NCBI GenBank assembly: GCA_029858505.1
Contig: JAOUEW010000001.1
Coordinates: forward strand, 868,001 to 932,000
Source: Deltaproteobacteria bacterium
GTDB lineage: Bacteria; SAR324; JACQKK01
Length of the DNA: 64,000 nt
Reading direction: 5' to 3'
The notes under the pieces were generated by a model that did no database searches, was not told where the DNA came from, and saw only the letters and a program-made list of their open reading frames with translations. Below are positions 1,134 through 8,322 of the stretch, piece by piece (positions within the stretch are counted from its first letter, which is position 1; each line of letters starts with the position of its first letter). A program made the translations under genes and the position numbers.

Positions 1134-1679
1134 ATGGACGAACAAAACAAACCGGGGGAAAACGCCCAGAGCAATGTCATTTCTTTGGATTCCCGCCGCA
1201 AGGAGCGGAAAAAGAAGGAAGCGGAACAAACCGCCGAGTTCCCGCCGGAAACCCTTCACACCCCCCATGCTGAAAACCTGGAGGCCATTCCCGCCAAGCT
1301 GACTTGGCTGTATTGCCCCGTGTGCGACACCCTGGAATACACCGAACTGGTGATGGAAGGGGGGCGGATGCACAAGTGCGGAACGGTGGTGCAGGAACAA
1401 GTGATCGACATCGACGTGCGGGCCGAGGCCACCCTGGCCCTGGCCAATCTGGAGCGGGCGAAGATTATGCAGGCGTATTTAGACAAAACCCGCGCCGCCT
1501 TTGAGGAATACCTGAACCGCCTGACCCTGATGGCTGGGTCCGTGCCAAGTCCCTACCCCCTTACGCCCGACGTGATGAAACACTTGGCCGTGGCCGAAAT
1601 TGACCCCTTTGGCATGATGGTGCCAGAAGTGTTGCACGAACCCCGCCGCCGCTTTCCCAAGCCCGATAAGGAGAAATAA
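1134..1679 (+). CDS. small protein with CxxC and HxC pairs, upstream of tgt
   Basis: A 181-residue protein that I do not recognise. The first 50 residues are charged and probably disordered (a Lys/Arg/Glu-rich run near residues 20-32). The middle holds CPVC (about residues 62-65) and, after about 20 residues, HKCG. This spacing looks like a small zinc ribbon with one ligand replaced by His. The C-terminal half is predicted helical. The stop lies 5 bp before tgt, and the tgt ribosome site (AAGGAG) sits inside the last codons of this gene, so the two are almost certainly co-transcribed and translationally coupled. A role connected with tRNA modification is inference from that coupling only. Confidence 0.7.
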   Translation: MDEQNKPGENAQSNVISLDSRRKERKKKEAEQTAEFPPETLHTPHAENLEAIPAKLTWLYCPVCDTLEYTELVMEGGRMHKCGTVVQEQVIDIDVRAEATLALANLERAKIMQAYLDKTRAAFEEYLNRLTLMAGSVPSPYPLTPDVMKHLAVAEIDPFGMMVPEVLHEPRRRFPKPDKEK

Positions 1680-1684
1680 CCCCC

Positions 1685-2824
1685 ATGACCCTCACCTTTG
1701 AGCGGCTGGCCGTGGATGGCCAAGCCCGGCTGGGGCGGGTGTCTACCCCTCAGGGCACCATCTCCACCCCGGTGTTCATGCCGGTGGCCACCCAGGGGGC
1801 CCTGAAGGCCCTGCCGCCGGAATGGGCCGCCGAGTCTGGCGCCCAGGCCCTGCTGGCCAACGCCTACCACCTGCACCTGAAACCAGGGGAAGGTTTGGTG
1901 GAAAGCCTGGGGGGGCTGCACAAGTTCATGAACTGGCCTGGGCATATCATCACCGACAGCGGGGGCTACCAGGTGTTTTCTCTGCCCGACCGGCAGATTA
2001 CCGAGGAGGGCGCGCGGTTCCGCGTGGGCAAGAAAGGCCAGCCAGAATTGTTCACCCCAGAACTGTCCATGGCCATTCAGCGCCGCCTGGGGGCCGACAT
2101 CATCATGGCCTTTGATGAGTGCGTGGCCTACCCCACCCCCTACAACTACGCCAAGCAGGCCATGGAGCGCACCCTGCGCTGGTTGGAGCGCAGCCGCCAA
2201 GCTTGGCAGAGCGAGGGGACCCCAGAGAAACAAGCCTTGTTCGGCATTGTGCAGGGTTCTACTTTTGCTGACTTGCGAAAAGAAAGCGCCCTGGCCACGG
2301 CGGCCCTGAACCTGCCCGGCATTGCCGTGGGGGGGTTGAGCGTGGGTGAAGGGCTGGAAGTGATGACCGAGGTGTTGGGATATACCATGCCCTATCTGCC
2401 AGAAGACCGCCCCCGCTATTTAATGGGGGTGGGGCTGCCAGAAGACGTGTTGGCGGCGGTGGAGGCGGGGGTGGACATGATGGACTGCGTGATTCCCACC
2501 AAATACGCCCGGGCGGGGGTGGTGTTTACCCGGGTGGGGCGCATGCGGCTGGATAACGCCGAATATCGCAAGGATAAATTCCCCCTGGATACCGCCTGCG
2601 GCTGCCCGGCCTGCACCCATTATTCACGGGCTTACCTGCACCATTTGTTTCAAGCGGGGGAAATTCTGGGCCACATGCTGGCCTCGCTGCACAACGTGCG
2701 GTTTTACATGGACTTGATGACGGGGGCCAGAGAGGCCATTGCCCAGGGCCGGTTCGCCGCCTACAAGCGGGATTTTTTGGAGGTGTACCAGCGCCGCGAC
2801 AAAAAGAACAAACGGGTGGGCTAA
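1685..2824 (+). CDS. tgt: queuine tRNA-ribosyltransferase (tRNA-guanine transglycosylase)
   Basis: A 379-residue cytosolic TIM-barrel enzyme that exchanges guanine-34 of GUN-anticodon tRNAs (Asp, Asn, His, Tyr) for the queuosine precursor preQ1. The first catalytic Asp is D91 in DSGGYQVFSL, where family members carry it. GGLSVGEG and DCVIPTKYARAG, the second Asp region, follow. The C-terminal zinc site is CGCPAC followed about 25 residues later by His. Length matches the bacterial family (370-380). The gene overlaps the stop of the convergent carbonic anhydrase gene by 4 bp. It follows the zinc-ribbon-like gene after 5 bp. No queA or queuosine-synthesis gene is in the window. Confidence 0.97.
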   Translation: MTLTFERLAVDGQARLGRVSTPQGTISTPVFMPVATQGALKALPPEWAAESGAQALLANAYHLHLKPGEGLVESLGGLHKFMNWPGHIITDSGGYQVFSLPDRQITEEGARFRVGKKGQPELFTPELSMAIQRRLGADIIMAFDECVAYPTPYNYAKQAMERTLRWLERSRQAWQSEGTPEKQALFGIVQGSTFADLRKESALATAALNLPGIAVGGLSVGEGLEVMTEVLGYTMPYLPEDRPRYLMGVGLPEDVLAAVEAGVDMMDCVIPTKYARAGVVFTRVGRMRLDNAEYRKDKFPLDTACGCPACTHYSRAYLHHLFQAGEILGHMLASLHNVRFYMDLMTGAREAIAQGRFAAYKRDFLEVYQRRDKKNKRVG

Positions 2825-3465
2825 CCGTTGTCGGCGTCTTTCAGCCGATACACCGGGGGAATCTGCTGGATGGAATCCACCGACACGTTCAGGTTTTTCA
2901 GCAGCCCGTTCTTCAGCCCGTAAATCCACCCGTGCACCGAGATTTCCTGCCCCCGCTCCCAGGCGCCCTGCACAATGTTGGTGCGGCAAACGTTCTGCAC
3001 CTGTTCCATCACGTTCAGTTCGCACAGTTTATCCACCCGTTCTTCTTCTCCTCCGGCTTGGTGCACTTCTTGGCGGCGCAGGTGGTAAATGTCTTTGATG
3101 TGCCGCAGCCAGTAGTCGGAAAGCCCCAGGGTTTCGTTGCCCATGGCCCGCATCACCCCTCCGCAGCCATAATGCCCGCACACGATAATGTGCCGCACCT
3201 TCAGCACCTCTACCCCAAACTGCAGCACCGACAGGCAGTTCAAGTCGGACGGAATGACAATGTTGGCCACGTTGCGGTGAACGAACAGCTCCCCCGGCAT
3301 CAGGTCCACGATTTCATTGGCCGGCACCCGGCTGTCGGCGCAGCCAATCCACAGGTATTGGGGGCTTTGCTGGCTGGACAGGGTTTTGAAAAACAGGGGA
3401 TCTTTGGCCGTGATGTTTGCGGCCCATTTTCGGTTTTTTTCAAACAGGTGGTCCAGTTCCGTCAT
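2821..3465 (-). CDS. can: beta-carbonic anhydrase
   Basis: A 214-residue beta-class carbonic anhydrase that interconverts CO2 and bicarbonate in the cytoplasm. All zinc and active-site residues are visible: C42, D44 and R46 in CADSR, and H98 and C101 in HYGCGGV. The length is typical of the Can/CynT group. It lies 81 bp downstream of the senB-like gene on the same strand. That gap contains the inverted repeat TACGTT-(5)-AACGTA at 3504-3520, so it may have its own promoter or operator. It converges on tgt with a 4 bp overlap. No cyanase or carboxysome gene is nearby, so a general bicarbonate-supply role is most likely. Confidence 0.96.
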   Translation of the reverse strand: MTELDHLFEKNRKWAANITAKDPLFFKTLSSQQSPQYLWIGCADSRVPANEIVDLMPGELFVHRNVANIVIPSDLNCLSVLQFGVEVLKVRHIIVCGHYGCGGVMRAMGNETLGLSDYWLRHIKDIYHLRRQEVHQAGGEEERVDKLCELNVMEQVQNVCRTNIVQGAWERGQEISVHGWIYGLKNGLLKNLNVSVDSIQQIPPVYRLKDADNG

Positions 3466-3546: not shown

Positions 3547-4563
3547 TCAAACACCCTTGCCCATCGAAAGCCATTCGGCCAGCAGGCTGCGCCAGCCCTC
3601 CCGCTCTGCCTGGGGGGTAACCTGGGGGGCCAGGCGGGCCATGGCCGCCCGCAGGGCCCCCAGGAATGCCGGGTCGCCTTCAGCCCGCTCCAACAAACCC
3701 GCCAGGGCCTGGGTGTCTTCCAGGGGAAACAACCCCGGATAGTCCTCTCCCAGCAGCCCCAGGTTGCCCTCCACCGCCGAGGCCAGCACTGGCAGCCCCA
3801 CCACGGCGGCTTCGGACAGCACGTTGGCCCCCCCTTCCATGCGGGAAGATAACACCAGCAGGTCAGCCTGGGCCATGCGTCGCAGGATCTCCCGGTGGGG
3901 ATAGGTTCCCAGCCAAACGTAGCGGGGGTTGGCGGTTTCTTCTGTCCGGGCGGCCTGGGCCATGCCGGGGGCAATGGCCCGGCCCAACTGCCACACCCGA
4001 ATCCGAGACGCCGCGGGGAGCAGGCGGGCCGCCAGGGCGGCCCGGAAGGGGTCCTTCTCTGGCCGCAGGTGCCCCACCACCAGCACATCAAACGAATCGG
4101 CAGGGGACCCCGGCAAGGCTGAGCGATGAAATTCTGAAGAGTGTGTTAGAGAACCGGCGGGGCCGGGCTGAGCCGACTGCAGGATTACCCGCAGCTTGGG
4201 ACGGTTCTCTGCTGGAAGACGCCGCTCCGCTAGGCGGTTCAGGGCCACCAGCCGCCCCGCCAGGGCCAGGGATTCCAACGCCTGGGGGTTGTTCGGCAGG
4301 TCCTGGTACAGGTCGGTTCCAGTCAGGGCCACCAGCAGGGGGCGGCCAGGGCACTGGGCCGCCCAGCGGGCCACTGAGGAATGGCTCTTGCGGGCGTGGA
4401 GGGCAATCAGCAGGTCAGCGGGCTGGCCCTCCCACGTTTGGGCCACCTTTACCCGCCAGCCCAGCCCCCGCAAAATGCCCGCCCAGCGGTTGGCGGTGAC
4501 CCGGTTGCCCAGGCGGCTGCCCGCCGGGGCCGGGGTAACGATAAACGCCAGGGGTTTTTTCAT
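3547..4563 (-). CDS. senB: SenB-type selenosugar synthase (glycosyltransferase)
   Basis: A 338-residue GT-B-fold glycosyltransferase. The N-terminus (GNRVTANRWAGILRGLGWRV at residues 19-38, then ADLLIALHARKS and VALTGTDLYQD at 79-88) follows the TIGR04348 family, now known as SenB. SenB joins selenophosphate to a UDP-sugar to form the selenosugar that SenA uses. The C-terminal nucleotide-sugar domain has LVVGHLRPEKDP and an EGGANVLSEA-type loop (E-x7-E motif). A Ser/Pro-rich insertion lies at about residues 132-157. The ATG at 4563 is preferred to an upstream TTG (4653), because family homology starts at MKKPLAF. It lies 220 bp downstream of the SenA-type gene on the same strand. The substrate assignment is inferred from family and neighbour. 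Confidence 0.85.
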   Translation of the reverse strand: MKKPLAFIVTPAPAGSRLGNRVTANRWAGILRGLGWRVKVAQTWEGQPADLLIALHARKSHSSVARWAAQCPGRPLLVALTGTDLYQDLPNNPQALESLALAGRLVALNRLAERRLPAENRPKLRVILQSAQPGPAGSLTHSSEFHRSALPGSPADSFDVLVVGHLRPEKDPFRAALAARLLPAASRIRVWQLGRAIAPGMAQAARTEETANPRYVWLGTYPHREILRRMAQADLLVLSSRMEGGANVLSEAAVVGLPVLASAVEGNLGLLGEDYPGLFPLEDTQALAGLLERAEGDPAFLGALRAAMARLAPQVTPQAEREGWRSLLAEWLSMGKGV

Positions 4564-4783
4564 CGCTTGAAACCTGGATTCAAATCCGTTCAAAAGAATG
4601 TACCCCGGCGCCGGGTGGTCGCCATCTCCTCGCTCTCTATCTTCCGATTGCAATACTTTAGATCATCATCTGGGGGGCTTTGCCCCCCGGTCTCGCTTTT
4701 CACGGAAAAACACGGGTTATGTTGCGGCTTCATCTTTGGTTTTGAATCTTCATTTTACCCATGTTCCGTTCGCAACCTCTCAA

Positions 4784-6190
4784 TCACAAAGGGCAGGTGC
4801 GAAAGCCCGCCAGCACGTCCCGGCGGTCGGGCAGATAGAAGTTTCTCCAACCCGTGCGGATGGTGCGGGGAGCGGTGGCCCAGCAGCCGCCCTTCAACAC
4901 CTTGCGATAGCCAAACCAGGGGGCGGAGTATTCCCGGTAGGGGCCGGTGACAAAACCAGGAAAGGGATAAAACGCATCGGCGGTCCACTCCCACACGTTG
5001 CCGATCATCTGGCGGCAGCCATGGGGGCTGTCGCCCTCTGGGTGGGCGGCCACGTCCACCGCCCAGCCAGCTTGGTGGTTCAGGTTGGCGGTGGCTACCG
5101 TTGGGGGCGTGTTCCCCCAGGGGTAGGTGTTCCTGGGGGCCAGTTGGCCCGGAGGGTTCGTGAGCGGTGAGTTAGAGGGTGATGGATTGGAAGTCTGCGG
5201 CTCTGGCGGGCTGGCCGCCAGCTCCCATTCGGCCTCGGTGGGCAGGCGCCGGCCAGCCCAGCGGCACCAGGCTTCGGCCTCGAACCAGTTCACAAACATC
5301 ACCGGCTGATGGGGAGCCAGGGGCACCCATTGGTTAAACCGGCGCATGGCCCAGCGCCCCGGCCCTTCCCGGCGCCAGTGCAGGGGCTGCCCTGCCCCCA
5401 CCCGGTGGCGCCAGTTCCACCCGGCCAAGGACCAATGCTGTTCTTGGTCGTAGCCCCCCGCCTCTACAAATTCTAAAAACTGTTCGTTGGTCACCGGGGC
5501 CCGGGCGATGGAAAAGGGCGCCACCCGCACCGGATGGGCCCATTGCTCGTTGTCGAACACAAAGGGTTCTGCTGGCCGGGCCCCCAGCCAAAACTTTTCG
5601 CGGCCCTCCACCGGCACGTCTCCCGGCCAGGGGCCGGCGGCTGGGGGTTCGTGGGCCTTGGGCACATCGGTAATCAGGGGGGCGGGGTAGCCCAGGGTCT
5701 GGCGGGTGTAGGTGTAGGCCTCGATATGCATGTCTTCATGAAACACCGCCAGCCGGTGCAGGAAGGTGGCCCGCTCGTCGGGTTCGGATTGGGCCAGGGC
5801 GGCCAACTCTCCCTCCAGCACTTCGTTCACATAGGCCAGGGTGTCTTCCGGCGAGGGGAGGGGGATGGACCAGCGGGTGGCGTGGTGGGTCTCAAACGAG
5901 TCGTACAGCCTGTCCCCATCGGGCCGCAGGGGGGGCAGCCCCCGCAGCACTTGGCGGGTCCATTTTTCGTGGAACCAGGCCACATGGCCCATTTCCCACA
6001 GCATGGGGTTCACCGTGTCTAGCTGGGGGCCCATCATTTCTCGGTATGTGAGCCCCGCTGTCAGGTCTCGGGAACGGCGGTAGGCGCTTTTCACCCAGGC
6101 TTGGAGTTCTTCTCCCCGAGTGGTCTTGCTAGCCATGAACGGGGGAAGGCCCGGCTGGGCAAGAGACTTGTTTGGAGGGAGATCAGCCAT
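4784..6190 (-). CDS. senA: SenA/EgtB-type non-heme iron enzyme (probable selenoneine synthase)
   Basis: A 468-residue protein with the EgtB architecture: an N-terminal DinB-like domain (about 25-170) and a C-terminal FGE-sulfatase / C-type-lectin-like domain (about 195-465). Iron ligands are visible as H69 (in MGHVAWFHE) and H151/H155 in HEDMHIE, the HX3HXE motif. The pattern NPMLWEMGHVAWF and the partner senB-like gene point to SenA. SenA couples hercynine to a selenosugar on the way to selenoneine, rather than to gamma-Glu-Cys or Cys as EgtB does. A Pro/Ser/Asn-rich insertion (about 327-352) interrupts the FGE domain. Neither egtD (hercynine) nor selD/senC is in the window. The start at 6190 is 5 bp from the antiporter stop, suggesting co-transcription. 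EgtB (ergothioneine) is the main alternative. Confidence 0.82.
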   Translation of the reverse strand: MADLPPNKSLAQPGLPPFMASKTTRGEELQAWVKSAYRRSRDLTAGLTYREMMGPQLDTVNPMLWEMGHVAWFHEKWTRQVLRGLPPLRPDGDRLYDSFETHHATRWSIPLPSPEDTLAYVNEVLEGELAALAQSEPDERATFLHRLAVFHEDMHIEAYTYTRQTLGYPAPLITDVPKAHEPPAAGPWPGDVPVEGREKFWLGARPAEPFVFDNEQWAHPVRVAPFSIARAPVTNEQFLEFVEAGGYDQEQHWSLAGWNWRHRVGAGQPLHWRREGPGRWAMRRFNQWVPLAPHQPVMFVNWFEAEAWCRWAGRRLPTEAEWELAASPPEPQTSNPSPSNSPLTNPPGQLAPRNTYPWGNTPPTVATANLNHQAGWAVDVAAHPEGDSPHGCRQMIGNVWEWTADAFYPFPGFVTGPYREYSAPWFGYRKVLKGGCWATAPRTIRTGWRNFYLPDRRDVLAGFRTCPL

Positions 6191-6195
6191 GGGGG

Positions 6196-8322
6196 TCAGC
6201 GCTTCCGGGTGGGGGGAGATTTCCTGGAGGCAGGTTGTTTGGCGGCCGGTTTTTTCTTGCGGGTTGTTTTCGCGGGGGCGCCAGGTGCTTCGGAGATTTT
6301 TTCCTGCTCCCCAAATTCGGGGTGTTCGGGCAGAAAGCCCAGGGCCATGAAGATCATGGCGCTGGTGACCTGGGCGTGCCCCCCGATCACATACACCGCG
6401 TCGTGGGCCAGGATGGTTTCTTGGGGGCGGGGAGAGTATATCATCTCTCCTCCCCGGTTCAGGGCCACGATGGACACCTGGGTGACCTCTCGCAGTTTGG
6501 ACTCAATCACCTTTTTTCCCACCACCCAGTCATGGTCTCCCACCAAGTAGGAATCCACCCGGATGTCTCGTAACCCCGCGGTGATCTGGGCCAGTTCGGC
6601 GTGGGGGGTCATGTCGAAGGGCTGGTGCTTGGCGATTTCCTCCCGCACTTCGGCAATGCGCCCCGCCACCATGTTCCGGGGAATGCCCAGGCGGCGCATC
6701 ACCCGGGCCATCATCTCAATGCCCGATTCCAACTCCATCACCACCACGTCGCTGGCGCCGTGCTTTTTCAAAGGCCCCGTGTCTCGCAGAAACTGGGCCC
6801 GCACGGTGATAGACACGTTCCGGTCGAATTGGCGAATGGCCGCCACCGACCGCAGGGCCGCGTCGGGGTCGTTGATGGCCAGCACCACCTCGCGGGCCTG
6901 ATGCACCCGCATGTGGGCCAGCACTTCGGGGCTGGAGGCATCGCCATAATAAATGGGCACCCCTTTTTTCCGCTCTTCCCTCACGGTTTCGGGGTTCAGG
7001 TCCAGCACGGCGTAGGGAATGCCCATGGTGGTAAACGCCTTGGCCAGGGTTTTTCCCCCCAGCCCGTACCCGATGATGACCGCGTGGTTTTTCAGCCCGT
7101 GGCTGTCTGGCCCCTCTTCATCGGCCCCCTGGGTGCCCAGGGCGTGTTCCAGGTTACGCATGCGGGTCATGCCGGCGGCAAAATGGGGGGCCATTCTCAC
7201 CAGCAGGGGGGTGACCAGCATGGTGAGCACCGTGGCCGCCAGGAACAATTGGTATTCCTGGGGGTTCATCAGCCCCATGTCTTTGCCCTTCAGGGCCAAC
7301 ACAAACGAAAACTCGCCCACCTGGGCCAGCCCCATGCTGGCCATGATGGCCACCCGCGCGGGAAACTGCATGGCCATGGCACCCAGAAAGGACACCACAA
7401 ACTTCAACAGCAACACCCCGATGAACAGCATCAACACGGTGAGGGGAGCCCCCCACATCAGGGCCGGGTTCAACAACATGCCCACCGAAATAAAGAACAG
7501 ACTGGAGAAGGTGTCTCGGAAGGGGAGAATATCGGCCAGGGCCTGGTGGGCGTAGTCGGAGTCGGCCAGCACCACCCCGGCCAAAAAGGCCCCCAGGGCC
7601 AGGGATAGCCCAGCCAAACTGGTGGCCCAGGCGATGACGATGACCACCAGCAGTACGCTCAGCAAAAACAACTCTCGTTTGCGCTGGCGGGCCACCAGCC
7701 CCAGAAAGGGGGGCACCAGCAGCCGCGATGCCGCCCACACCCCCGACACCACCAGGGCCGCCTTGCCCAGGGCCATGAACACATCCATGGCCCCCCCGCC
7801 CCCGCCCCCCAGCATGGGCAGAATCAGCATGATGGGCACCACGCACAGGTCCTGGAAAATCAGCACCCCAATCACCAGCCGCCCGTGGGGGGCGTTCAAT
7901 TCGTTGCGCTCGGCTAAAATTTTCAACACGATGGCGGTGGAGGACAAGGCCACCAGAAACCCAAAGAACACCCCCTGGTTCAGGCTGTGGCTTCCCCCCG
8001 CGTACAGCAAGGCCGCGGTGGCGGCGGTGGTGGCCCCCACCTGCAAGCCGCCCCCAATCATCACCATGCGCCAAATGCGCTTCAGCCGCTCCAGAGAGAA
8101 CTCCAGGCCGATGGTGAACAACAGCACCACCACCCCCACTTCCGCCAGGGTTTCCACCGCGTGGATGTCTTTCACCAGCCCCAAGCCGTTGGGGCCCAAC
8201 ACCACACCCGCAATCAAGTAACCCGCGATGCTGGGCAAGTTCAGCCGCCCCAGCAACAGCACCACCGCCACCGCCATGGCGAAAATCACCGCGATGTCTT
8301 TTAACAGCGACAGGCCTTCCAT
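6196..8322 (-). CDS. KefB/KefC-type CPA2 monovalent cation:proton antiporter
   Basis: A 708-residue inner-membrane protein. Residues 1-390 form the 12-13 helix CPA2 exchanger core (FxxGLEFSLERL near the start, FQDLCVVPIM, and SLALGAFLAGVVLADSDY). An RCK_N/TrkA-N domain begins near residue 408 with the nucleotide motif GYGLGGKTLA, and a TrkA-C domain occupies about 570-650. The last 40 residues are a Lys/Arg/Pro/Ala tail with no assigned function. The family exchanges K+ or Na+ for H+ and is gated by nucleotide or glutathione ligands. It precedes senA by 5 bp on the same strand, so the three minus-strand genes may form one transcript. Ion specificity cannot be read from sequence. Confidence 0.92.
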   Translation of the reverse strand: MEGLSLLKDIAVIFAMAVAVVLLLGRLNLPSIAGYLIAGVVLGPNGLGLVKDIHAVETLAEVGVVVLLFTIGLEFSLERLKRIWRMVMIGGGLQVGATTAATAALLYAGGSHSLNQGVFFGFLVALSSTAIVLKILAERNELNAPHGRLVIGVLIFQDLCVVPIMLILPMLGGGGGGAMDVFMALGKAALVVSGVWAASRLLVPPFLGLVARQRKRELFLLSVLLVVIVIAWATSLAGLSLALGAFLAGVVLADSDYAHQALADILPFRDTFSSLFFISVGMLLNPALMWGAPLTVLMLFIGVLLLKFVVSFLGAMAMQFPARVAIMASMGLAQVGEFSFVLALKGKDMGLMNPQEYQLFLAATVLTMLVTPLLVRMAPHFAAGMTRMRNLEHALGTQGADEEGPDSHGLKNHAVIIGYGLGGKTLAKAFTTMGIPYAVLDLNPETVREERKKGVPIYYGDASSPEVLAHMRVHQAREVVLAINDPDAALRSVAAIRQFDRNVSITVRAQFLRDTGPLKKHGASDVVVMELESGIEMMARVMRRLGIPRNMVAGRIAEVREEIAKHQPFDMTPHAELAQITAGLRDIRVDSYLVGDHDWVVGKKVIESKLREVTQVSIVALNRGGEMIYSPRPQETILAHDAVYVIGGHAQVTSAMIFMALGFLPEHPEFGEQEKISEAPGAPAKTTRKKKPAAKQPASRKSPPTRKR

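Follow-up and report, generated by a model that had tools for sequence, protein, structure and literature searches.

A probable selenoneine biosynthesis gene pair, senA-senB, in a SAR324-related bacterial genome

Two adjacent minus-strand genes, senA and senB, in a 64,000-nucleotide stretch of a SAR324-related genome (the whole of which is referred to here as the window) very probably form a selenoneine biosynthesis module, with the reactions and the product assigned from characterised homologues. Found directly were members of the SenA, SenB, EgtD and SelD families, the catalytic residues of SenA and SenB, the lack of EgtB, and a conserved pairing of the two genes; judged from sequence, the pathway looks complete but dispersed in the genome, and is of a kind already known. 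Selenoneine, a selenium antioxidant, is the principal form of organic selenium in ocean fish, and its microbial sources matter. The pair adds a well-assembled SAR324-related genome to the organisms likely to make this compound.

In the characterised pathway, selenophosphate from SelD/SenC is used by SenB to form a selenosugar, which SenA joins to hercynine; elimination and reduction following the SenA step yield selenoneine (PMC9814287, PMC10702425). By analogy, SelD, encoded elsewhere in the present genome, would form selenophosphate from selenide and ATP, and SenB would combine selenophosphate with a UDP-sugar to give a 1-seleno-sugar. Histidine would be trimethylated to hercynine by EgtD, encoded 82 kb away, whereupon SenA, acting as a non-haem iron oxygenase with O2, would couple hercynine, at its C2, with the selenosugar to give a selenoxide. 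The selenoxide would then lose its sugar by elimination and be reduced to selenoneine.

The gene pair and its neighbours

The senA gene (4784..6190, minus strand) encodes a predicted selenoneine synthase of 468 amino acids, which is recognised by the NF041186 and TIGR04373 profiles, by its residues, and by a fold match to SenA, OvsA and EgtB structures. The protein consists of DinB_2 and FGE-sulfatase domains, in agreement with the FGE-like domain described in an earlier, sequence-only reading of this DNA. Its iron ligands are H69, H151 and H155, located in the motifs WEMGH (H69) and H151-EDM-H155-I-E157, and H69, H151, H155 and E157 are without variation across a 36-sequence alignment of SenA homologues. 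The AlphaFold model of SenA (mean pLDDT 89.5) matches the crystal structures of OvsA, EgtB and SenA. Profile E-values for the pair (6.6e-140 and 1.9e-113) are far beyond chance.

The adjoining senB gene (3547..4563, minus strand) encodes a predicted selenosugar synthase that scores 378.6 bits against the SenB model TIGR04348 (cut-off 300) and 199 bits against Variovorax paradoxus SenB (VpSenB, 8fbx), and that aligns over its full length with SenBs of known crystal structure. All of the VpSenB residues N20, T23, H58, D86, R155, K158, E231 and E239 are kept. Mutagenesis of V. paradoxus SenB showed that N20, T23, K158, E231 and E239 matter (PMC10891094), and these correspond to N50, T53, K200, E273 and E281 in the numbering of the window ORF. 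The motif EGGANV stands in place of EGGAHV, and EGGANV is found in 62 of 65 aligned SenBs. The senB reading frame extends as far as a TTG at 4653, yet the ATG at 4563 is more likely to be the true start, as VpSenB begins near frame residue 31 (MKKPLAFIVTP...).

The sequence-only reading had placed both ORFs on the correct strand, with the right coordinates for the pair (3547-6190) and the right numbering for the HX3HXE motif (residues 151-157) and H69, and it had correctly taken the glycosyltransferase for SenB; the start of senB is the point that is better revised, to 4563. It had also described a KefB/C-type antiporter and a carbonic anhydrase next to the pair, and both are indeed there.

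The gap between senA and senB is 220 nt long (4564-4783) and contains, on reading the sequence, a 9-bp G+C-rich hairpin at 4670..4690 with a T-rich tail after it on the plus strand and none on the minus strand. Given this hairpin, senB may be expressed from signals of its own.

Upstream of senA lies a gene for a Kef-type CPA2 monovalent cation:proton antiporter with TrkA_N/TrkA_C domains (6196..8322, minus strand; PF00999/PF02254/PF02080), whose stop codon is 5 nt before the senA start. Elsewhere this adjacency is encountered only in the closest relative, G003 (L136, 62% identity), which also has the most similar SenA. Because the arrangement persists in the nearest related genus, it was considered that the antiporter might function within the selenoneine system, through efflux, say, or through a pH/K+ response to selenoneine or selenol stress; such a role is unlikely. 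In G003 the antiporter gene is directly upstream of senA (L136:2958-6466, plus strand), and senA itself is broken by a frame break near 5930 that is perhaps an assembly error. The co-directional neighbour on the other side encodes a beta carbonic anhydrase (2821..3465, minus strand; PF00484; NF007756 at 266 bits, above 251). A link between this gene and the sen pathway was rejected, since a carbonic anhydrase is near sen genes at no other SenA-like locus compared, and the enzyme is probably unrelated to selenoneine.

Separation of SenA from EgtB and OvsA

The window SenA passes both the SenA model NF041186 (466.8 bits, cut-off 420) and the TIGR04373 signature (81.6 bits, cut-off 71), and scores 125.7 bits against the OvoA-N model (cut-off 400). 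Against the EgtB model TIGR03440 it reaches 300.5 bits, short of the cut-off of 360, so that the comparison of SenA and EgtB profiles proposed in the sequence-only reading came out in favour of SenA, the sole one of these two cut-offs that is passed. It is extremely improbable that the synthase is a plain EgtB making ergothioneine with an incidental glycosyltransferase beside it. Such an enzyme would be in keeping with the presence of egtD, with the lack of any other EgtB in the genome and with an iron-site fold common to both families, but it is opposed by the failed EgtB profile, by the replacement of the C-terminal RNWD of EgtB with RNFY, and by the presence of senB at 57 of 80 homologous loci. 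The phylogeny argues the same way. In a 30-row SenA/OvsA/EgtB tree, used here as a 64-row quick tree proved unreliable (constrained searches found better trees), the EgtB sequences form a separate branch, split from SenA/OvsA with support of 100/100, and forcing the window protein among them is weakly rejected (p = 0.04). Within the same tree the window SenA clusters with two SenAs of its own family (97/94) and not with OvsA, which itself branches within the SenA family.

The closeness of OvsA brings in a second alternative, namely that the synthase places selenium on C5 of histidine and, together with the methyltransferase OvsM, leads to ovoselenol and not to selenoneine. The best full-length PDB match, by sequence and by fold, is indeed the OvsA of Halomonas utahensis, and senB is common to the selenoneine and ovoselenol pathways. 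Moreover, the OvsA of another genome, G012, passes NF041186 as well (423 vs 420 bits), which means that this model alone cannot separate SenA from OvsA. The TIGR04373 signature, by contrast, gives the G012 OvsA 58 bits, under the cut-off of 71 that the window SenA exceeds. At the positions where native OvsA (8u41/8u42) and the G012 OvsA have M/Q/A, the window protein has Y421/N450/F451, and V. paradoxus SenA agrees with it there (window numbering). According to its PDB title, 8ux5 is an OvsA variant, M401Y/Q430N/A431F, that binds hercynine and has selenoneine-biosynthetic activity; its substitutions are at the same three positions and introduce the same letters as those of the window SenA, these details of OvsA being taken from PDB titles and sequences. 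No match to OvsM (TIGR04345) was obtained within the 64-kb window, whereas in G012 the gene sits between ovsA and senB; egtD is present in the window genome and lacking from the 95%-complete genome of G012; and a tree with the window protein and OvsA forced together is rejected (AU p = 0.005). An ovoselenol synthase is therefore very unlikely.

A SenA of the selenoneine pathway is thus the preferred assignment, and the three pocket residues, Y/N/F versus M/Q/A, separate SenA from OvsA, a call with which gene context and tree agree. This discrimination is the most useful by-product of the analysis, as three residues together with the egtD/ovsM context tell the two enzymes apart.

Other members of the same order were also observed to carry related systems. 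The G012 cluster (L126:8881-12004, minus strand) is of the ovoselenol type, with the order ovsA-ovsM (TIGR04345)-senB and an M/Q/A pocket, and it illustrates that the NCBI SenA model can mislabel OvsA as SenA. At L137 (G024) and L138 (G032) an EgtB-like protein with a HEQQH motif is encoded adjoining or near egtD. Ergothioneine, ovoselenol and selenoneine pathways seem to be spread over different members of one order.

The remaining pathway genes and conservation of the pair

Profile searches were carried out on the contigs of the window genome (2.79 Mb, 97% complete). The sequence-only reading had noted no selD/senC and no egtD, which holds for the window but not for the genome, where the search it proposed located both. 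The selD gene (C2:215-1141; L003:116-1162, minus strand; 362.3 bits) is on a different contig from senA-senB, and egtD (C4:791021-791926; 352.6 bits, cut-off 290.9) is 82 kb from senA. Together with the profiles and residues, these two genes support the earlier view of the pair as senA-senB of selenoneine synthesis. Directly upstream of egtD is a gene that by eye resembles gamma-glutamyltranspeptidase (L005:61-1320 and 1363-2421, plus strand).

The selD gene has an in-frame TGA in a CGUAAK context, and SelD is apparently itself a selenoprotein, with selenocysteine at this motif; an in-frame TGA in selD is general across this class. A hairpin with a GGUCU loop follows the TGA and resembles a bacterial SECIS, while Rfam detected no RNA family, SECIS included, in either the selD locus or the window, and ARAGORN no tRNA in the selA/selD stretch. 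Both selA and mnmH/selU are encoded, and the genome appears to support the use of selenium in selenocysteine and selenouridine in addition to selenoneine. As SelD supplies the selenocysteine and 2-selenouridine routes too, its presence alone does not show selenoneine.

Genome-wide, neither an EgtB nor a second SenA was detected; the only other match is partial (about 70 bits), and the best place for the EgtB model reaches 299.9 bits, again under 360. With no egtB in the genome, hercynine has no visible use other than selenoneine. Clustering of senC/selD with senA-senB is typical but not required; in the window genome neither selD nor egtD is clustered with the pair. No match in this genome was obtained for TIGR04553, a putative selenate ABC transporter that accompanies many sen clusters.

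The 80 SenA-like loci come from named genomes across many phyla and, besides senB at 57, have egtD at 17 and selD at 16 or more; senA, senB, egtD and selD are all present at L039, L050, L053 and L067, and some loci also carry TIGR04553. In three close homologous loci (L012, L013, L021) senA, senB and egtD are side by side, and in the relative G004 senA, senB and selD are together. Nine of the 10 genomes from the window's family have senB, and eight of these nine also have egtD, counts that include partial matches at contig ends (two for senB, one for egtD). Class-wide, senB is found in 11 genomes, egtD in 13 and both in 9 (Fisher p = 9e-6), an association that comes mostly from one family and is not significant outside it (p = 0.23). 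One genome, G005 (L134, L124), has two SenA copies: one is paired with senB close to a TIGR04553 gene, and the second stands by itself on a short contig.

These distributions also bear on whether the pair, though real, is chiefly used to make a different selenium- or thio-sugar product, with hercynine not being the natural acceptor. SenB is promiscuous and uses six UDP-sugars (PMC10891094), and the relative G002 (91% complete) has senAB with no egtD detected, both of which fit such a product. It is nonetheless exceedingly unlikely, given that the egtD of the window genome has no other evident role, and given the side-by-side senA-senB-egtD arrangements noted above.

Comparison with known systems

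The window system shares EgtD and the iron-enzyme fold with the EgtB/EgtD ergothioneine pathway, and differs from it in that the genome has no EgtB above cut-off. The OvsA cluster of H. utahensis (8u41, 8u42, 8ux5) is like the window SenA in fold (TM 0.83-0.85), with 38% identity and a SenB partner in both systems; unlike OvsA, the window SenA has hercynine-type pocket residues, no ovsM in the window, and an egtD in its genome. The sen cluster of V. paradoxus, reportedly described by Kayrouz et al. in 2022, encodes SenA, SenB and SenC. It agrees with the window in the families of SenA and SenB, in the catalytic residues, in the iron site and in the hercynine-type residues, but the window cluster has no selD/senC, the genomic selD (Sec, CGUAAK) being on another contig. 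The window SenA keeps a loop (about residues 327-396) that is shortened in VpSenA, and the window SenB reads EGGANV where that of V. paradoxus reads EGGAHV.
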